Source: Burkholderiaceae bacterium
GTDB taxonomy: Bacteria; Pseudomonadota; Gammaproteobacteria; Burkholderiales; Burkholderiaceae_C
Direction: 5' to 3'
DNA: 64,000 nucleotides
NCBI GenBank assembly: GCA_023954035.1
Contig: JAMLIT010000009.1
Span: 1 to 64,000, forward strand
Below the pieces are notes generated by a model. The model saw nothing but the letters and a program-made list of their open reading frames with translations, made no database searches and had not been told where the DNA came from. The position numbers and the translations under genes are program-made. Below, in pieces: positions 3,770 through 52,615 of this stretch. Positions within the stretch are counted from its first letter, which is position 1. The number at the start of each line of letters is the position of its first letter.

Positions 3770-4669
3770 ATGGACTGGGACAACTTGCGCTATTTTCTGG
3801 AACTCGCCCGCGCCGGCACGCTGGTGGGCGCGGCGCGGCGCCTGGGGGTGGACCACACCACGGTGGCGCGGCGCATTCAGGCGCTGGAAAAGCAGGTCGG
3901 CTCGCCGCTGTTCGCGCGCGAGGCCGCAGGCCACCGGCTGAGCGAAGCCGGCCGCACGCTGTTGCCGCAGGTCGAAGGCATGGAGGCGGCGTTTCTGGCG
4001 GTGGAGCACGCGGCGCCCGGCGTGCGCCAGGGCCTGCACGGCGCGGTGCGCATCGGCGCCACCGAAGGTTTTGGCAATCTGGTACTGGCGCCGCAACTGG
4101 CGCAGTTCGCGTCCGAGCACCCGGGCCTGGTGATCGATTTGCTCGCGCTGCCGCGGTTGGTGCACTTGTCCCGCCGCGAGGCGGACATCGTCATCTCGCT
4201 TGAGCGCCCGGCGCGCGGCGCGGTGCTCGTGGTCAAGCTCACCGACTACGTTCTTCAACTCTATGGCGCACCCGGCTACCTGGCGGCGCACGGAACCATC
4301 CGCACGCCAGCCGACCTGGCGGGCCACAGCTTCGTCAGCTATGTGGACGACCTGCTGTTTACCAAGGAACTGCAAATTCTGGACGAACTGCACCGGCCGG
4401 CGCATTTTTCACTGCGCAGTACCAGCGTGCTGGCCCAGTACGAGGCGGTGCGCGCCGGGGCGGGACTGGGCGTGTTGCCGGCGTTCGTGGCCGCGCAAGA
4501 CGCGACGCTGCGCGCCGTGCTTCCCGGCGCAGCGCGTTTCGTGCGCACTTTCTGGATGTCCATGCCGGAGGAAAACAAGCACGTGGCGCGCATGCAGGCC
4601 ACCTGGGAGTTCGTGCGCACTGCGGTGGCGGCACGGCAAGAGCAACTGATGCCAGATGCTATTGGATAA
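3770..4669 (+). CDS. LysR-family transcriptional regulator
   Basis: 299 residues, the standard LysR length. The ATG at 3770 is chosen because the protein then begins MDWDNLRYFLELARAGTL, the canonical LysR N-terminus, followed by the winged helix AARRLGVDHTTVARRIQALE. The rest is the periplasmic-binding-like co-inducer domain. It is divergent from mmsA, so the likely role is control of the mmsA-acyl-CoA dehydrogenase-mmsB cluster and of itself; the effector is unknown. The last codons (DAIG-stop) lie inside a repeat copy: ATGCTATT (4656-4663) and AATAGCAT (4669-4676) form a perfect hairpin across the TAA. Confidence 0.9.
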   Translation: MDWDNLRYFLELARAGTLVGAARRLGVDHTTVARRIQALEKQVGSPLFAREAAGHRLSEAGRTLLPQVEGMEAAFLAVEHAAPGVRQGLHGAVRIGATEGFGNLVLAPQLAQFASEHPGLVIDLLALPRLVHLSRREADIVISLERPARGAVLVVKLTDYVLQLYGAPGYLAAHGTIRTPADLAGHSFVSYVDDLLFTKELQILDELHRPAHFSLRSTSVLAQYEAVRAGAGLGVLPAFVAAQDATLRAVLPGAARFVRTFWMSMPEENKHVARMQATWEFVRTAVAARQEQLMPDAIG

Positions 4670-4715
4670 ATAGCATGGAACGCTTTTGCAGCAAGCGCAA
4701 GAAGCCTATTTGACT
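4655..4715. repeat. AGCGCT palindromic repeat, divergent copy 4
   Basis: Forward orientation and diverged: AAATAGCATGGAACGCTTTT, then GCAGCAAGCGC, then AAGAAGCCTATTTGACTCA. It starts inside the last LysR codons and runs into the 192-bp gap before the EF-hand gene. The rest of that gap (4716-4861) holds no gene I can support. Confidence 0.6.
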
Positions 4716-45018: not shown

Positions 45019-45024
45019 TAAAAT
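45019..45024 (+). promoter_or_regulatory. Candidate -10 of the thrS leader transcript
   Basis: TAAAAT lies 42 bp upstream of the leader ORF start. No convincing -35 sits at 16-18 bp; the best is TTCGGG at 44994 with 19-bp spacing. If used, the transcript would begin near 45031 and reach the terminator after about 150 nt. Confidence 0.45.
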
Positions 45025-45065
45025 AAGAACGTGAATCCACCAGCAAGCAAGAAAAACTTTTGGTT

Positions 45066-45107
45066 ATGACACCGCGAACTACGTGGGAGAGATTGACTGG
45101 CCTCTAA
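45066..45107 (+). CDS. Threonine-rich leader peptide of thrS (predicted)
   Basis: ATG 45066 opens a 13-codon [16 protein letters not shown], ending TAA at 45105. Four of 13 codons are threonine (ACA, ACT, ACG, ACT). The Thr codon ACT at 45096-45098 and the stop fall in a 6-bp hairpin, CTGGCC (45097-45102)/GGCCAG (45108-45113), with the stop codon in its loop. An intrinsic terminator follows 46 bp later and thrS begins 54 bp beyond it. This is the arrangement of a ribosome-stalling attenuator sensing Thr-tRNA charging. The upstream ribosome-binding site is weak. Confidence 0.6.
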
Positions 45108-45153
45108 GGCCAGAGGTTCGCGCCTGCTCGGTAGTTCTCACCCCTGCCACAAG

Positions 45154-45181
45154 AAAGCGCGTATCGATTCCGCGCTTTTTT
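45154..45181 (+). terminator. Intrinsic terminator/attenuator upstream of thrS
   Basis: AAAGCGCG (45154-45161) pairs with CGCGCTTT (45171-45178) in an 8-bp stem with a 9-base loop, followed by TTT, a G and TTTT. An alternative partner for its 5' arm exists upstream: CGCGC at 45119-45123 is complementary to GCGCG at 45157-45161, allowing an antiterminator. Confidence 0.8.
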
Positions 45182-45234
45182 GTTTTCTGAGGAAGCGCCG
45201 CGCGGTGGGTACACACGATTTGACAAGGATTCCC

Positions 45235-47154
45235 ATGATTCACATCACCCTTCCTGACGGTTCCCGACGCGAGTTCTCGGGGCCTGTCACGGTGGCCGAG
45301 GTTGCGGCCTCGATTGGCTCTGGTCTGGCCAAGGCAGCGCTTGCCGGAAAGGTGGGCGGCAAGGTCGTCGATACAAGTCACCGAATCGAAGAGGACAGTG
45401 TGCTGGCCATCGTCACTGCCAAGGATGACGAAGGCCTGGAGGTGATTCGCCACTCGACCGCGCACTTGCTCGCCTATGCGGTCAAAGAGCTGTTCCCCGA
45501 GGCGCAGGTCACAATTGGCCCGGTCATCGAAAACGGCTTCTATTACGACTTCGCTTACAAAAGGCCATTCACACCAGAGGACCTCGAAGCCATTGAAAAG
45601 CGCATGGCGCAACTGGCTGCGAGAGACGAACCGGTCGTGCGGCGTGTACTGCCGCGCGATGAGGCGGTCGCGTATTTCAAGAGTCTGGGCGAACACTACA
45701 AGGCCGAGATCATTTCGAGCATTCCCAGCAACGAAGACGTCAGCCTATACCGCGAAGGGGGCTTTGAAGACCTGTGCCGCGGGCCGCACGTGCCCAGCAC
45801 CGGCAAGCTCAAGCATTTCAAACTGATGAAAGTCGCTGGGGCCTATTGGCGCGGCGATCATCGCAACGAGATGCTGCAACGCATCTACGGTACCGCTTGG
45901 GCAAGCAAGGAGGAACTGCAGCACTACCTCACCATGCTCGAGGAAGCCGAAAAACGGGATCACCGCAAACTGGGCCGGGAGCTGGACTTGTTCCATCTCG
46001 ACGAACATTCGCCCGGCACCGTGTTCTGGCACCCCAAGGGTTGGACCGTGTGGCAGGAGGTCGAGCAGTACATGCGTCGCGTGTACCAGGACAATGGCTA
46101 CCAGGAAGTCAAGGGGCCGCAGATTCTGGACGCCTCGCTTTGGGAAAAAACCGGTCACTGGGACAAATACCGCGAAAACATGTTCACGACGGAATCGGAA
46201 AAGCGCGAGTACGCACTCAAGCCGATGAACTGCCCGGGCCACATCCTCATCTACAAGCAAGGCATCAAGAGCTATCGGGATCTGCCGCTGCGATTGGGCG
46301 AGTTTGGCCAATGCCACCGCAATGAGCCCAGCGGCGGACTGCACGGCATCATGCGTGTACGCGCTTTCACCCAGGACGACGGGCACATCTTCTGCACCGA
46401 AGACCAGATACTGGAAGAATGCGCGGCGTTTACCAAGCTGCTGCAGCGCGTCTACCGCGACTTCGGGTTTGAGGAAGTGATCTACAAGGTCGCCACCCGT
46501 CCCGAGGCGCGAATCGGCTCGGATGAGTACTGGGATCGCACCGAGAGCGCTTTGATGGAGAGCCTGCGCCAGACCGGTTGCGAATTCGAGATCGCAAAAG
46601 GCGAGGGCGCGTTCTATGCGCCCAAGATCGAGTACACGCTCAAGGACGCGTTGGGCCGACAGTGGCAGTGCGGCACCATCCAGATCGACCCCAACATGCC
46701 GGAACGGCTTGGCGCCGAGTATGTCGACGAAGCGGGCGTGCGCCGCACCCCGATCATGCTGCACCGGGCGATTGTCGGAAGTCTGGAGCGATTCATCGGT
46801 ATTCTGATTGAGCAGCATGCCGGCGCGCTCCCGGTCTGGCTTGCGCCGGTCCAGGCTGCGATCCTCAACATCACCGATGCGCAGGCCGACTACTGTCGCG
46901 AAATTGCTGAAAAACTGGCTCAGGCGGTGCCCCACCATCCTTTGCGCGTGGCGCTGGACTTAAGAAACGAGAAGATTACGTATAAAATACGTGAGCATTC
47001 GTTGCAAAAGCTGCCCTTCATTCTGGTTGCTGGCGAGAAGGAGCGAGCAGCCGGAGCGGTTGCAGTGCGTGCCCGAGGCAACCAAGACCTTGGGATGATG
47101 CCGGTCGAAGAGTTCATTCAACGCATCACGCGCGCCATTGCCGACAAAGCTTGA
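45235..47154 (+). CDS. thrS: Threonyl-tRNA synthetase
   Basis: 639 residues from ATG 45235 with an AAGGA box; an in-frame upstream start (45205) adds 10 unconserved residues. Domains: TGS (about 1-62, [20 protein letters not shown]), the ThrRS second additional/editing domain with [12 protein letters not shown], then the class II catalytic core with [12 protein letters not shown] (zinc Cys), [36 protein letters not shown], and an anticodon-binding domain (about 535-639). It charges tRNA-Thr and edits Ser-tRNA. It leads the thrS-infC-rpmI-rplT-pheS-pheT-ihfA string and is preceded by the Thr-rich leader and terminator. Confidence 0.97.
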
Positions 47155-47242
47155 TCAGCCGTCATTGCTTGGCTACACCGTTCGGTGAAGCCGTGGCGCG
47201 TTGGCCCCAAGTGGAGGGCGTCCTAATTAAGAGGTGAGAACC

Positions 47243-47845
47243 ATAGCTACTGAATTTCGTGATCGTCGCCACCGTGAAGAGCGCAAGCACCGCCTGAACC
47301 GTGAAATCATGGCCCCCGAAGTCCGCTTGTCGGGGCCGGACAATGAGCCCTTAGGGGTCGTCAGCCTGATGGATGCGTTGCGCATGGCGGGCGAGCTCGA
47401 TGTGGATCTGGTGGAAATTTCCGCCACCGCCAACCCGCCCGTGTGCCGTTTGATGGACTATGGCAAGTTCAAGTACATCGAGCAAAAGCGCGCCGCGGAG
47501 GCCAAGGCCAAGCAGACGGTCATAGAGATCAAGGAAGTTAAGTTCCGTCCCGGCACGGACGACGGTGACTACAACATCAAGTTGCGCAATATCCGGCGTT
47601 TCTTGGCCGAGGGCGACAAGTGCAAGATCACGCTGCGTTTTCGCGGCCGTGAGATCACGCACCAGGATCTGGGCTTGGCACTCTTGAACCGATTGCGCGA
47701 CGATCTCGGCGATACGATTTTGGTCGAGCAGTTTCCCCGTCTGGAAGGGCGGCAGATGATCATGATGATCGCGCCGGCCCGCAAAAAGACGGCAGCGGCA
47801 CGCTCAGCGGAAGCGACTTCCGGTGCGGATGCCAATGCGTCCTGA
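47243..47845 (+). CDS. infC: Translation initiation factor IF-3 (AUA start)
   Basis: 200 residues if read from ATA 47243 (initiator Met). No ATG is available before the conserved [24 protein letters not shown] at 47231-47234 is 8 bases from ATA, ideal spacing, whereas a GTG at 47234 overlaps that box and cannot use it. IF-3 motifs: [49 protein letters not shown] and [16 protein letters not shown]. Rare AUU-type start codons let IF-3 repress its own synthesis, so AUA here probably keeps that autoregulation. A small hairpin (47171-47192) lies between thrS and infC. The C-terminus has an extra Ala/Ser-rich tail. Confidence 0.88.
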
Positions 47846-47869
47846 GACGCCGGTGTGGAGGAATGGGGT

Positions 47870-47994
47870 TGCTCAGGCACGCGGTGCCTGAGCACTTGCA
47901 CAGGAACACCGTTTTCGGTGTTCCAGCGTCGGCTGAAATGCCGGCAACAAAGAAGTGTCTCGGGGCCAGCAAGTTTGCAAGCTGTTTTGCAAAC
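47870..47994 (+). promoter_or_regulatory. Three-hairpin region between infC and rpmI
   Basis: In the 180-bp infC-rpmI gap lie three perfect stems: TGCTCAGGCAC/GTGCCTGAGCA (47870-47894, 3-base loop), GGAACACCG/CGGTGTTCC (47903-47924, TTTT loop) and GTTTGCAA/TTGCAAAC (47973-47994, 6-base loop). None is followed by a T-run, so they are not obvious terminators. In other bacteria ribosomal protein L20 represses rpmI-rplT by binding structured mRNA here; that role is inferred. Confidence 0.55.
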
Positions 47995-48025
47995 GCCTCA
48001 CGAGCACAAACTAAGGAGCATTTTC

Positions 48026-48229
48026 ATGCCCAAGATGAAGTCCAAGAGCAGCGCCAAGAAGCGCTTTCGCGTTCGCCCGGGTGGCACTGTCAAGCGCGGC
48101 CACGCCTTCAAGCGTCACATCCTGACCAAGAAGACCACCAAGAACAAGCGCCACTTGCGTGGCATCACGGCTGTCCATGAGACCAATATGGCCTCCATGG
48201 CACAGATGCTGCCCTTCGCTGGCCTGTAA
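48026..48229 (+). CDS. rpmI: 50S ribosomal protein L35
   Basis: 67 residues, the standard size. [20 protein letters not shown] and the basic run [20 protein letters not shown] are diagnostic. An AAGGAG box precedes the ATG. It lies between the three-hairpin region and rplT in the canonical infC-rpmI-rplT order. Confidence 0.97.
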
Positions 48230-48255
48230 TCAACGGACGAACAAGGAGTACTCCC

Positions 48256-48615
48256 ATGCCTCGCGTCAAACGTGGTGTCACGGCTCACGCCCGTCACAAA
48301 AAAGTTCTGGCCCTTGCCAAGGGTTTCCGCGGCCGCCGCGGCAATGTTTTCCGGATCGCCAAACAGGCGGTCATGAAGGCTGGGCAATATGCCTACCGTG
48401 ATCGCCGTGCCAAGAAGCGCGTCTTCCGCCGCCTCTGGATTGCCCGTATCAATGCCGGCGCGCGTGAACTGGGTCTGACCTACAGCCAGTTCGTGAGTGG
48501 CCTGAAAAAGGCATCCATCGAGATCGACCGCAAGATGCTGGCCGATCTGGCGGTGCACGACAAAGCGGCTTTCGGCAGCATCGTCGAACAGGTGAAGGCC
48601 AAGCTGGCCGCTTGA
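48256..48615 (+). CDS. rplT: 50S ribosomal protein L20
   Basis: 119 residues, exactly the family length. [40 protein letters not shown] and [20 protein letters not shown] identify it. It organises 23S rRNA early in 50S assembly, and in E. coli and Bacillus it represses its own operon. It starts 26 bp after rpmI and is followed by a repeat copy that forms a terminator. Confidence 0.98.
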
Positions 48616-48630
48616 GCGAATCGCCAACAG

Positions 48631-48683
48631 CTATTTTATTGATAGCTTTTAGCGCAATTACAGCAAGGGCTAGGGCTTGAAAA
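48631..48683. repeat. AGCGCT palindromic repeat, copy 12 (rplT-pheS)
   Basis: Forward orientation: TATTGATAGCTTTTAGCGCA, then ATTACAGCAAGGGCTAGGGC, then TTGAAAA. One arm has mutated from AGCGCT to GGGCTAG, and that arm now forms the 5' side of the terminator at 48665. Confidence 0.75.
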
Positions 48684-48703
48684 GGCACTAGCCCTTGTTT
48701 TTT
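48665..48703 (+). terminator. Intrinsic terminator or attenuator before pheS
   Basis: AAGGGCTAG (48665-48673) pairs with CTAGCCCTT (48688-48696), a perfect 9-bp stem with a 14-base loop, followed by G and six T. It lies 12 bp before the pheS ATG, so it would either separate rplT from pheST or be conditional. The 5' arm comes from the repeat copy. Confidence 0.82.
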
Positions 48704-48714
48704 GAAGAAACCAT

Positions 48715-49767
48715 ATGAACGACCTGGATTCCTTGGTTGAGACTGCCCGGCAGGCGTTTGCGCAAAGCACAGCGCCCGCCGAACTCGAAAATGCGAAAGC
48801 CCGCTTTTTGGGCAAATCCGGGCGCATGACCGAACTCATGAAGGGCATGGCGCAGCTCTCGCCGGAGGAGAAAAAATCGCGCGGTGCGGCCATCAACCTC
48901 GCCAAGCAGGCTATCGAGGCCGCCTTGACGGCGCGACGCCAAGCCCTCTCAGAGGCCGAGTTGGAACGGCAACTGCAGGCCGAAGCGCTGGACGTCAGCC
49001 TCCCCGGACGTCAGCGGGGGCAGGGCGGTTTGCACCCAGTCTCCTTGACACTCGAGCGCATCGAGGGCCTCTTCGGCTCCATGGGATTTGAGGTGGCGGA
49101 CGGGCCCGAGATTGAAACCGACTGGTTCAACTTTACTGCGCTCAATACGCCACAGGACCATCCGGCGCGCTCCATGCACGACACCTTCTACATCGAAGGC
49201 GGCGATGAACAAGCGCCCCACCTGCTGCGCACCCACACCAGCCCGATGCAGATTCGGCATGCGATCGCCCATGTCAAGCGCCACCGCGCCGCACTGGACG
49301 CTGGCCAGGCGATCCCGGAAATTCGGGTCATCGCTCCCGGACGGACGTACCGTGTGGACAGTGATGCCACCCACTCACCCATGTTTCATCAATGCGAGGG
49401 CCTGTGGATTGGGGAGAACGTCAGTTTCAAAGATCTGAAGTACGTCTTTACCGCCTTTTGCCGCCGCTTTTTTGAGACCGACGAACTGGTGTTGCGTTTT
49501 CGTCCCAGCTTTTTCCCGTTCACCGAGCCCAGTGCCGAAATCGACATCCAGTTCCAGCAAGGCCCACTGGCGGGACGCTGGCTGGAAGTGGCGGGTTCCG
49601 GCCAGGTGCATCCGAATGTGGTGCGCAACATGGGGCTTGACCCGGAGCGCTTCATCGGATTTGCCTTTGGCATGGGGTTCGATCGTTTGACCATGTTGCG
49701 CTATGGCGTCAGCGATCTGCGTTTGTTTTTTGACGGAGACATCCGATTTCTATCGCAATTCCAATAG
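48715..49767 (+). CDS. pheS: Phenylalanyl-tRNA synthetase alpha subunit
   Basis: 350 residues, usual for bacterial PheS. N-terminal coiled coil (about 1-85), then class II motifs: [76 protein letters not shown] and [17 protein letters not shown]. It forms the alpha2beta2 enzyme with PheT, encoded 72 bp downstream. Its ATG is directly after the terminator hairpin, with a weak GAAGAAA box. Confidence 0.97.
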
Positions 49768-49839
49768 GGCAATGCGGAGGCCCTGAAGTCTGGGGGCTTG
49801 TTCCGCAAGGCCAGCTTGTGACGTACGAACATTTTTCCT

Positions 49840-52284
49840 ATGCAATTTCCTGAATCCTGGCTGCGCGAATTCTGCAATCCGCCGTTGAGTTCCGCTGAGC
49901 TGGCGGACACCTTGACCATGGCGGGGCTGGAAGTCGAAGCGATGGAGCCTGTCGCTCCGCCCTTTGAAGGCGTGGTGGTGGGCGAAATCCGCTCGGCAGT
50001 ACAGCACCCCGATGCCGATCGCCTGCGCATATGCCAGGTGGACGTGGGCCAGCCCGAGTGGCTGAACATCGTTTGCGGTGCGCCCAATGCCCGCCCAGGC
50101 ATCAAGGTGCCCTGCGCACTGGTGGGCGCGCGGCTCCCGGCGGCAGACAACGCAGAGGCTTTCGTCATTCGCATCGGAAAGCTGCGTGGCGTGGACAGCC
50201 ACGGCATGCTGTGCTCGGCCAAAGAACTCAAGCTTTCCGATGACCACGGCGGCTTGCTGGAGCTGCCGGACAATGCCCCGCTGGGAGCAGACGTTCGCCA
50301 AGTGCTGTCGCTCGACGATACGCTGTTCACGCTCAAGCTCACGCCCAATCTGGCGCACTGCCTGAGCGTGTATGGCGTCGCTCGCGAGCTGGCCGCGCTG
50401 ACCGGTGCAAGACTCGATACGCCAGTCTTTCCAGCTGCGGCAGTGGACATCGAGGACACGCTCCCGGTTCAGATCAGCGCGCCGGATCTGTGCGGGCGGT
50501 TTTCTGGTCGCATCGTTCGCGGCTTGAACCCGGGTGCGACTACGCCGCCCTGGATGGTCGAGCGCCTGGCGCGCTGTGGCCAGCGAAGCGTTTCGCCCCT
50601 GGTGGACATTTCGAACTACGTGATGTTCGAGTTCGGCCGACCCTCCCACATCTTTGATCTGGACAAGATCCACGGCGGTCTCGACGTGCGCTGGGCGGGG
50701 GCCGGCGAGTCGCTCACGCTGCTGAGCGGCGCCACCGTTGCGCTGGATGCCGACGTGGGCGTGATCGCCGACGAAACGCAGGTGGAGTCGCTGGCGGGCA
50801 TCATGGGCGGCTTGGCAACGGCGGTGTCCGACGAAACGAGGAACATTTACATCGAAGCCGCGTTTTGGTGGCCGCAGGCGGTGGCGGGCCGATCGCGCCG
50901 CTTGCGGTTTTCCACGGAGGCGGGACACCGTTTCGAGCGCGGCGTCGATCCGGAGCACACCGTGGAGCACATCGAACGCATTACCCAGTTGGTGCTCGAC
51001 ATTTGCGGCACGTCCGACTCGGTGTGCGGGCCGGTGGACGACCAAAAGCCGAGCATGCCCGAGCGCCATCCTGTGCGTTTGCGCATCGCACGTGCTGCCA
51101 AGGTAATCGGCATGCCTGTCTCACAAGCGCAATGCGTGCAAGTCCTCGAGCGTTTGGGTCTGCAAGTTGCGCAATCCGACGGGGAGCTGACAGTTCGCCC
51201 CCCAGCCTACCGTTTTGATCTGGCGCACGAGGAAGATTTGATCGAAGAGGTCGCGCGCATCGTCGGTTACGGCCAGCTGCCTGATACGCCTCCGCTCGCA
51301 CCGGTCACGCCTATTCTGCGGGCTGAGCGCAAGCGCAGCCCGTTTGCCTTGCGGCGCCAGCTTGCCGTGCTGGGCTATCAGGAGACGATCAACTTCAGCT
51401 TTGTCGACGCCGATTGGGAACGCGAACTCGCAGGTGTCCGCGACCCCATCCGCCTGTTGAACCCGATTTCTAGCCAAATGAGCGTTATGCGCTCGTCCCT
51501 ACTGGGTTCTTTGCTACAAGTTTTGAAATTCAACGTGGATAGACGTGCAGAGCGCGTGCGCGTTTTTGAGCTCGGCCGCGTGTTTTTACGCGACGCTGCA
51601 GTGGCCGAATCCGATACCACGGTGGCGGGCTACCGCCAACCCCAGCGTGTTGCAGGCCTTGCTTATGGGCCAGCCGACCGTGTGCAATGGGGTCTCGCTG
51701 GCCGCAACGTAGACTTTTATGACGCCAAAGGGGACGTCGAGGCCTTGCTGGCGCCGCGCAAGCCGGCTTTCGAGAGAGCGGAGCATCCCGCGATGCATCC
51801 GGGGCGCTGCGCGCAGATCTTGCTCGATGGCCGTCCTGTCGGTTGTGTCGGCGAGTTGCATCCCAAATGGCGGCAGTCCTGGGGGCTTGCCCAGGCCCCC
51901 GTACTTTTTGAGTTGGAGCTCGATGCGGTTCTGACCAAGCCCTTGCCTGAGTTCGCGCCCGTCGCGCGGCATCAGGCTGTGGAGCGCGATATTGCGGTGG
52001 TCGTGGGCGAAGACGTCACGCACGGCCAGTTGATGCAGTCGATCGCTTTGGCATTGGACGCCGCGATGCTGCGTGATGCGATTTTGTTTGATGTTTATCG
52101 TCCGAAATCCCTCAAGCGCGACGAGCCGTCTGGCGCCGTCGGCCTCGCACAGGGGGAAAAGAGCATGGCGATTCGCTTGGTGCTTGGAGGCGACACGACG
52201 CTTACGGAAGCTCAGATCGACGCGGCTGTCGCCTCTGTGGTCGAGCAATTGGCACTGCGTCACGGCGCGCGCCTGCGGGTCTAG
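49840..52284 (+). CDS. pheT: Phenylalanyl-tRNA synthetase beta subunit
   Basis: 814 residues, typical length. It has the EMAP-II-like tRNA-binding domain near the N-terminus ([40 protein letters not shown]), the B3/B4 editing domain, B5, and the catalytic-like core with [20 protein letters not shown]. The C-terminal FDX-ACB anticodon-binding domain (about 720-814) ends RHGARLRV. It pairs with PheS. It follows pheS by 72 bp and is 10 bp before ihfA. Confidence 0.97.
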
Positions 52285-52294
52285 GAGAGGAACG

Positions 52295-52615
52295 ATGCAA
52301 CGCGTGGAATTCACCGTCGATAGTCTGGAAACCCCTGCCTTGACCAAGGCGCAGCTTGCCGACCTGTTGTTCGATCAGATTGGCCTGAACAAGCGCGAGT
52401 CCAAGGACATGGTCGATGCATTCTTTGACCTGATTGCGCGCAGCCTGGTCGATGGCGACGACGTCAAGCTGTCCGGTTTTGGCAACTTCCAGATTCGCAC
52501 CAAGGCGCCACGACCTGGGCGCAATCCCCGCACCGGTGAGGCCATACCGATCGGCGAGCGCCGCGTGGTGACATTTCACGCGAGCAGCAAGCTCAAGGAA
52601 CAGATTCAGGGCTAG
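52295..52615 (+). CDS. ihfA: Integration host factor alpha subunit
   Basis: 106 residues from ATG 52295 with a GGAGAGG box. The HU/IHF fold and the DNA-intercalating arm are visible: [60 protein letters not shown]. It heterodimerises with IhfB and bends DNA at specific sites. Its place after pheT is the same as in E. coli. Confidence 0.96.

Follow-up and report, generated by a model that had tools for sequence, protein, structure and literature searches.

A predicted threonine attenuator in front of thrS in a Burkholderiaceae bacterium and its relatives

Results

A candidate threonine leader in front of thrS

The thrS gene in the window (the whole stretch of 64,000 nucleotides that was analyzed) is very likely preceded by a ribosome-mediated transcription attenuator, which would answer the charging of Thr-tRNA and set the transcription of thrS and perhaps that of its operon. 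A threonine attenuator had been proposed at this place in an earlier note on the same DNA, and the interpretation is supported: the leader is conserved in relatives, and the proposal survived this attempt at refutation. As the earlier note had described, a TAAAAT box, a 13-codon frame with four Thr codons, and a terminator with a T-run followed by thrS can all be read in the window, and CGCGC can pair with the 5' arm of the terminator (Table 1).

The leader frame reads ATG ACA CCG CGA ACT ACG TGG GAG AGA TTG ACT GGC CTC TAA. Among 1000 dinucleotide shuffles of the 220 nt 5' of thrS, 6 had an ATG frame that equaled or exceeded the leader in Thr codons within ten codons. On comparative grounds the Thr-rich leader frame is no chance ORF, the family comparison being far stronger evidence for this than the shuffle test. 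A simple consensus scan of the window gave no promoter before the thrS leader, and no -35 box is evident by eye upstream of TAAAAT; a TANNAT-type box lies 46-67 nt 5' of the leader ATG in 45 of the 56 close leaders. The Shine-Dalgarno sequence of the window, AGAAAAA, is weaker than the AGAAAGG of the family. Relatives carry AGAAAGG or GGAAAGG; of 53 non-redundant close leaders, 51 have [AG]GAAAGG, which can pair with CCUUUCU at the 3' end of 16S rRNA, within 30 nt 5' of the leader start.

The hairpin at the end of the frame (P2) had been described as a 6-bp stem holding the last Thr codon and the stop codon. The stop codon indeed lies in and beside the loop, but the fold has 7 bp and takes in only the last two bases of that Thr codon (45096-45098). 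The terminator stem (45149-45161/45171-45183) has 13 bp and a folding energy of -16.8 to -17.3 kcal/mol and runs into TTTTTTGTTTT. It is absent from the output of the simple consensus scan because its loop is 9 nt and the scan permits 3-8. With a purpose-made finder, which had no shuffle control, a terminator-like hairpin with a T-run was seen in 177 of 182 non-redundant leaders. Two refinements of the pairing scheme came from the comparison. The antiterminator, CGCGC with GCGCG, has only 5 bp in the window, whereas in relatives the pairing of GTTCGCGC with GCGCGGAC extends to as many as 8 bp; and a third arm, absent from the earlier note, is formed by CGCGAAC in codons 3-5, which can pair with GTTCGCG (P1).

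Table 1. Features of the thrS leader and operon in the window.
Feature	Position	Strand	Basis
-10-like box TAAAAT	45019-45024	+	read directly
Shine-Dalgarno-like AGAAAAA of the leader frame	45050-45056	+	read directly
Leader peptide frame, 13 codons, Thr at codons 2, 5, 6, 11	45066-45107	+	read directly, family comparison
P1 (anti-antiterminator) 5' arm CGCGAACT, inside codons 3-5	45073-45080	+	
Stop-codon hairpin P2, arms 45097-45103 / 45107-45113	45097-45113	+	fold, covariation
P1 3' arm GGTTCGCG, overlapping the antiterminator arm	45115-45122	+	
Antiterminator 5' arm CGCGC (GTTCGCGC in many relatives)	45119-45123	+	
Intrinsic terminator; its GCGCG (45157-45161) is the antiterminator partner	45149-45186	+	read directly, fold
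thrS, threonyl-tRNA synthetase, first gene of the operon	45235-47154	+	Pfam TGS, tRNA_SAD, tRNA-synt_2b, HGTP_anticodon
infC, rpmI, rplT, pheS, pheT, ihfA	47243-52615	+	Pfam; starts partly inferred, ihfA named by place

The operon behind the leader

The gene order thrS-infC-rpmI-rplT-pheST-ihfA given earlier agrees with the Pfam matches, ihfA (a bacterial DNA-binding protein by Pfam) being named by its place, and the ATG of thrS agrees with the aligned starts of relatives. Pfam also identifies a MerR-type regulator, and a divergent Dus upstream. Judged by this gene order, it is possible that leader control reaches infC and pheST. The source assembly comprises 3.3 Mb in 76 contigs and is 89% complete.

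Several further observations were made in the operon. There is no ATG where the start of infC is expected; an AUA 4 nt 3' of AGAGGTGAG looks like the start, with an in-frame GTG at 47234 as the alternative, and the infC start of E. coli is reportedly likewise non-canonical. Between rplT and pheS (48664-48703) a terminator-like hairpin, CAAGGGCTAG/CTAGCCCTTG, is followed by TTTTTT, which suggests further control within the operon; no clear Phe-rich frame was seen there by eye. Lastly, the palindrome GCTAT-N7-ATAGC occurs twice in the window (4658-4674 and 48630-48646) where 0.04 occurrences are expected, and similar pieces were noticed by eye just 5' of the thrS terminator in some relatives (L027, L051). 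A small repeat carrying this palindrome may have entered these spacers.

The leader is conserved before thrS in most sampled genomes of the GTDB family

We read 60 thrS 5' regions: that of the window, those of genomes from its genus, and those of some of the family genomes with the most similar ThrRS. In 56 of the 60, which give the leaders of the close set, GGTTATGACACCGCGAAC or a close variant was present, always opening a short frame that begins MT[P/A]RT. The earlier note had named conservation of the Thr codons and of the CGCGC/GCGCG pairing as a check, and both comparisons were run. Thr at codons 2 and 5 was found in 56/56 close leaders; Thr at codons 6 and 11 was not kept throughout, and the two relatives with the most similar ThrRS (L003, L004) have Thr only at codons 2 and 5. 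CGCGC/GCGCG is nearly invariant, but this proves little alone because the motif sits in two other pairings as well.

In the other four regions the leader is gone and the terminator is kept. These loci, three of them from the genus of the window (L018, L019, L060) and one other (L057), lack the leader frame, the stop hairpin, and the antiterminator arm, and they appear to be natural losses of the leader. In the three of the genus the loss is apparently one deletion, the TAAAAT box being followed by the terminator after about 20-25 nt.

A covariance model (R1) built from 43 leaders, used with a cutoff of E 1e-6, matched 231 of 299 family genomes; among the 266 with a completeness of 90% or more and a contamination of 5% or less, it matched 211. 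The 299 genomes are a sample of the family, and the search filters lose weak matches. Within the genome of the window the next best match had an E of 0.5, and over the order 105 of 399 genomes matched at E up to 0.01, many of them weakly. Named genomes were also scanned for GAAAGG-N(6-12)-GTTATGACACCGCG, which returned at least 118 stretches. For 117 of the stretches listed, thrS lies downstream: tblastn found it in the orientation of the leader in 115 (77 among the first 80 and all of the 38 others), and in two (L250, L257) its start is readable. The remaining stretch (L260) ends 43 nt 3' of the leader ATG. In the 77 from the first 80 listed stretches, the distance from the leader ATG to thrS was 120-306 nt, with a median of 159. 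Record titles among the first 80 include Variovorax, Acidovorax, Comamonas, Rhodoferax, Roseateles, and Leptothrix, as well as Massilia, Janthinobacterium, Duganella, Herbaspirillum, Undibacterium, and Cupriavidus. One record titled uncultured Alphaproteobacteria (L210) has a typical MTPRT leader 5' of thrS and is probably a mislabelled or mixed bin. The leaders share descent, so that counts of them are not independent.

The sequence comparison shows conservation of the frame, its Thr codons and rare codons, the stop hairpin, the terminator, and the target gene.

Threonine is kept as an amino acid

To examine the leader past codon 5, we used 125 non-redundant leaders with 108 distinct peptides, drawn from the close set together with the first 80 scan stretches and chosen regardless of their sequence beyond that codon. 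ACN occupied 249 of 750 positions at codons 6-11 in frame and 4/750 and 18/750 in the other two frames, that is, 33% in frame against 1-2% out of frame. Codon 6 was Thr in 105 of the 125. When a further 29 leaders were included, which came from elsewhere and some of which had been selected for their Thr content, the counts were 288/920 in frame against 7 and 20, and codon 6 was Thr in 120 of the 154 leaders (ACA 40, ACG 35, ACC 30, ACT 15). The spread of codon 6 over all four Thr codons indicates conservation of the amino acid rather than of the bases. Because the leaders share descent, no probability is attached to these counts.

This pattern bears on the explanation that the leader is a binding site for ThrRS, mimicking tRNA-Thr as in E. 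coli thrS, with the frame incidental. The GGTTATGACACCGCGAAC stretch is conserved beyond what pairing alone needs, as such a site might be. However, the conservation follows the reading frame, as both the synonymous codons at position 6 and the excess of in-frame ACN show, and distant families lose GGTTATGACACCG yet keep a Thr-rich frame. No shared anticodon-like loop was seen by eye in the leaders, and the terminator that follows the leader also speaks against a ThrRS site, which we regard as highly unlikely. That the frame instead encodes a small functional protein is scarcely credible: its MTPRT start is nearly invariant within the family at the protein and DNA levels, but past residue 5 both sequence and length vary, Thr content excepted, and several other families have no MTP.

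One candidate for a Thr-anticodon mimic, GGU just 5' of the leader ATG, was considered and rejected, since any of U, C, A, and G can stand on its 5' side and a U would follow it, where the anticodon of tRNA-Thr is followed by A.

Thr-rich leaders and tRNA-Val genes in other families

To survey the order independently of the leader, we took one genome per family (two for one family), chosen regardless of leader, and read 50 of 51 loci. An ATG frame with at least two Thr within ten codons at a shuffle p of no more than 0.05 was present in 10 of the 50, one of them before a second thrS copy. In a second set of the order, which is biased as its 39 genomes were chosen from R1 matches, 21 of the 30 loci read passed this leader test. 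Among loci from other orders of the class, 27 in number and many of them likewise with short spacers, none passed the same test at p up to 0.05. The Thr leader thus appears to be common in the order and patchy among its families, and outside the order it was unseen in this small sample.

The leaders of other Burkholderiales families differ from that of the window, and they often stand behind tRNA-Val(GAC). Examples are MQLNRTTTTS, MFKRTTTTRISR, MFRTTTTTGK, MQRTSTKTITYLG, MSFRTRMTTDA, and MTLRTCTKH. Before a second ThrRS gene in one genome (G352, locus L141), a frame ending VTTTTTTSTAT is accompanied by strong hairpins with no T-run; this is perhaps another threonine leader of a different type.

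By a sequence motif, tRNA-Val(GAC) stands 5' of thrS in many loci: within the order, the family excluded, 52 of 80 have it, and in other orders 20 of 27. ARAGORN confirmed tRNA-Val(gac) in 10 of the 12 loci tried, the two without it being the locus of the window (L001) and one of its genus (L015). Among the one-per-family loci with tRNA-Val upstream, 15 of 34 have a spacer of less than 100 nt, which leaves little room. The terminator could be read as that of an upstream transcript, originally tRNA-Val, with the thrS promoter after it and the frame a relic of no regulatory role. The frequency of tRNA-Val before thrS is in keeping with this, as are the leaderless loci, of which three retain both the -10-like box and the terminator and the fourth (L057) the terminator. 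Still, there is no tRNA gene upstream in the window or in the one close relative tried, the -10-like box stands 5' of the leader, and a relic would not retain Thr codons and rare codons. We consider a terminator of this origin with a relic frame very improbable.

Rare codons at the early threonine

Attenuators are known to use rare codons at their regulatory positions. In 37 listed leaders from outside the family, the early Thr is preceded by Arg, Leu, or Pro. Wherever that residue is Arg its codon is CGA, in 31/31 leaders outside the family (18 families) and in 53/53 close leaders. The pair CGA-ACU/G is thus seen in 31 of the 37, the other six having CTG, CCG, or CCA before Thr. The Thr codon that follows is ACT in 32/37 leaders outside the family and 48/53 of the close set, and otherwise ACG. 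For comparison, CGA makes up 6% of Arg codons in the genes of the window and 4% in the thrS pieces of the outside-family loci; among Thr codons, ACT has a share of 6% in the window genes and 12% in the thrS pieces, and ACA 6% in both.

Predicted folds of the leader, and a switch that would depend on the order of folding

We examined the predicted structures in an alignment of 43 leaders. In the terminating fold (P1, P2, and the terminator) 92.7% of cells were paired, against 28-50% in slid versions. P2 covaries, 5 of its 6 pairs having changed on both sides. No pair of P1 has done so, because its 5' arm is almost invariant, and one P1 pair is broken in 9 of the 43 rows. In the antiterminator fold 89.6% were paired (91.6% for its own helix), with thin covariation: both partners had changed in 2 of the 8 pairs, and one pair was broken in 18 of the 43 rows. 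Several leaders swap GTTCGCGC for forms such as GTCCGCGC, which keep the antiterminator and weaken P1. Outside the family, a motif able to pair with CGAAC was found 3' in 18 of 37 leaders where 9.1 are expected, a number reached in 2 of 500 shuffle sets, and with one leader per family in 8 of 19 against 4.1 expected (11 of 500 shuffle sets). In the leaders of one family (f8), CTAGTCG was seen by eye to pair with CGGCTAG of the terminator, the stop codon lying inside that arm.

The duplexes were also compared with shuffled sequences. Those of the antiterminator were on average 2-3 kcal/mol stronger than shuffles and reached p of no more than 0.05 in 23%, 37%, and 23% of leaders of the close, scan, and order sets, respectively; for P1 the corresponding figures were 26%, 13%, and 17%. 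In the window itself neither the antiterminator nor the P1 duplex stood above shuffles (p 0.22 and 0.26). An antiterminator and an anti-antiterminator are only moderately supported across the leaders, and in the window alone they are not beyond chance.

To model the switch at equilibrium, we let the 5' arm of the terminator but not its 3' arm be made and scored the upstream pairing of the 5' arm. For a ribosome stalled at Thr, a ribosome at the stop codon, and free RNA, in this order, the values were 0.69, 0.65, 0.66 (close set), 0.66, 0.60, 0.66 (scan set), and 0.63, 0.55, 0.56 (order set). No clear switch among the three ribosome states emerged from this model, and in the close set they were not separated. 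The order set is the exception, in that 17 of its 53 leaders scored more than 0.1 higher when stalled than when free and 5 did the opposite. As pairing of the 5' arm in the close set is about equal in the three states at equilibrium, a switch would have to come from the order in which the RNA folds.

A version of the model that stops short of the terminator separated the states in part: sequestration of the antiterminator arm in the stalled, stop, and free states was 0.46, 0.52, and 0.74 in the close set, 0.47, 0.28, and 0.60 in the scan set, and 0.51, 0.29, and 0.63 in the order set. In the latter two sets sequestration was lowest for a ribosome at the stop codon, partly because ribosome-blocked bases count as free. 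Leaders in which the arm was more sequestered free than stalled by more than 0.3 outnumbered the reverse by 24:0 of 53 in the close set, 12:1 of 68 in the scan set, and 8:0 of 53 in the order set. Two leaders with Thr runs (L108, L170) differed clearly between the stalled and free states in the equilibrium model.

Proposed mechanism

An attenuation mechanism is likely as to its kind, and the details given here are proposed. We infer the transcription start, translation, stalling, the order of the pairings, and the response to threonine from the features above. RNA polymerase would start about 35 nt 5' of the short Thr-containing frame, which would be translated. When Thr-tRNA is charged, the ribosome would pass the Thr codons and leave at the stop codon; CGCGAAC could then pair with GTTCGCG and tie up the antiterminator arm, so that the terminator would halt transcription. 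When Thr-tRNA is uncharged, the ribosome would stall at the Thr codons flanking CGA and cover CGCGAAC. The stop hairpin would then form, leaving GTTCGCGC free for the terminator 5' arm GCGCGGAC, and transcription would read through into thrS. The predicted outcome is that more ThrRS is made when charged threonine tRNA runs short. In other families the arm sequences differ and some antiterminator arms overlap the stop codon, so that the timing may differ.

A more speculative reading, which we hold to be possible but doubtful, makes CGA-ACU/G, which recurs in 18 families besides that of the window within differing peptides, a cassette dedicated to pausing. Through slow decoding at CGA the ribosome would be held precisely where the antiterminator is uncovered, and the leader would read general translation speed along with Thr-tRNA charging. 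The attenuator itself would have originated in the tRNA-Val/thrS spacer and made use of the terminator of the tRNA. If this were true, the cassette would tune thrS and, via the operon, IF3, L35, L20, PheRS, and IHF.

Discussion

The his, trp, thr, and pheST attenuators work like the mechanism proposed here for thrS. A close likeness in Rfam is Thr_leader (RF00506; thrL of gammaproteobacteria), which also combines a Thr-rich frame, alternative hairpins, and a terminator before the first gene, but which controls thrABC biosynthesis and not thrS. Its best match in the window scored 17.7 bits (E 0.59) against a gathering score of 55. No Rfam family covers the thrS leader: none of the leader families reached its gathering score in the window or in 7 relatives, and in 9 relatives at E up to 1 the four matches were far below their gathering scores and none was a leader family. 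The attenuator of E. coli pheST, with the leader peptide PheM, is a precedent for a synthetase operon under a leader rich in the cognate amino acid; the residue is Phe there and Thr here, and pheST lies further downstream in the cluster of the window. The T-box of synthetase genes in Firmicutes likewise senses uncharged tRNA and controls a terminator, but it reads the tRNA directly through a large RNA, and no T-box was among the Rfam matches of the window leader.

In E. coli, ThrRS recognizes a tRNA-Thr-like element of its own mRNA (PMC8058203) and blocks translation. The same gene is concerned here, with ribosome stalling and transcription termination predicted instead. The accessible text of a 2010 survey of premature terminators names threonyl-tRNA synthetase once, for the autoregulation in E. 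coli, and thrS is absent from its main text (PMC2965389). A 2013 survey of regulons of Rfam motifs raises the possibility that gammaproteobacteria were the origin of the amino acid attenuators (PMC3766115). No thrS leader peptide of betaproteobacteria was found in the full texts searched (among them the available parts of PMC2965389, PMC2330054, PMC3766115, and PMC8058203), a body of text that leaves most subscription papers and the supplements outside and does not establish absence from print. What the comparison well supports is a predicted mechanism of an ordinary kind at an unexpected gene, widespread and not described in the literature searched.

Translational autoregulation through a tRNA-like operator has its classic example in the thrS gene of E. 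coli, and much of the order appears to use a different device. The thrS leader would be a further RNA family without annotation, present in hundreds of genomes, and would explain short unannotated frames before thrS, and its natural variants and natural losses are available as testable material. It is also a case in which an attenuator may have grown out of the spacer behind a tRNA gene.
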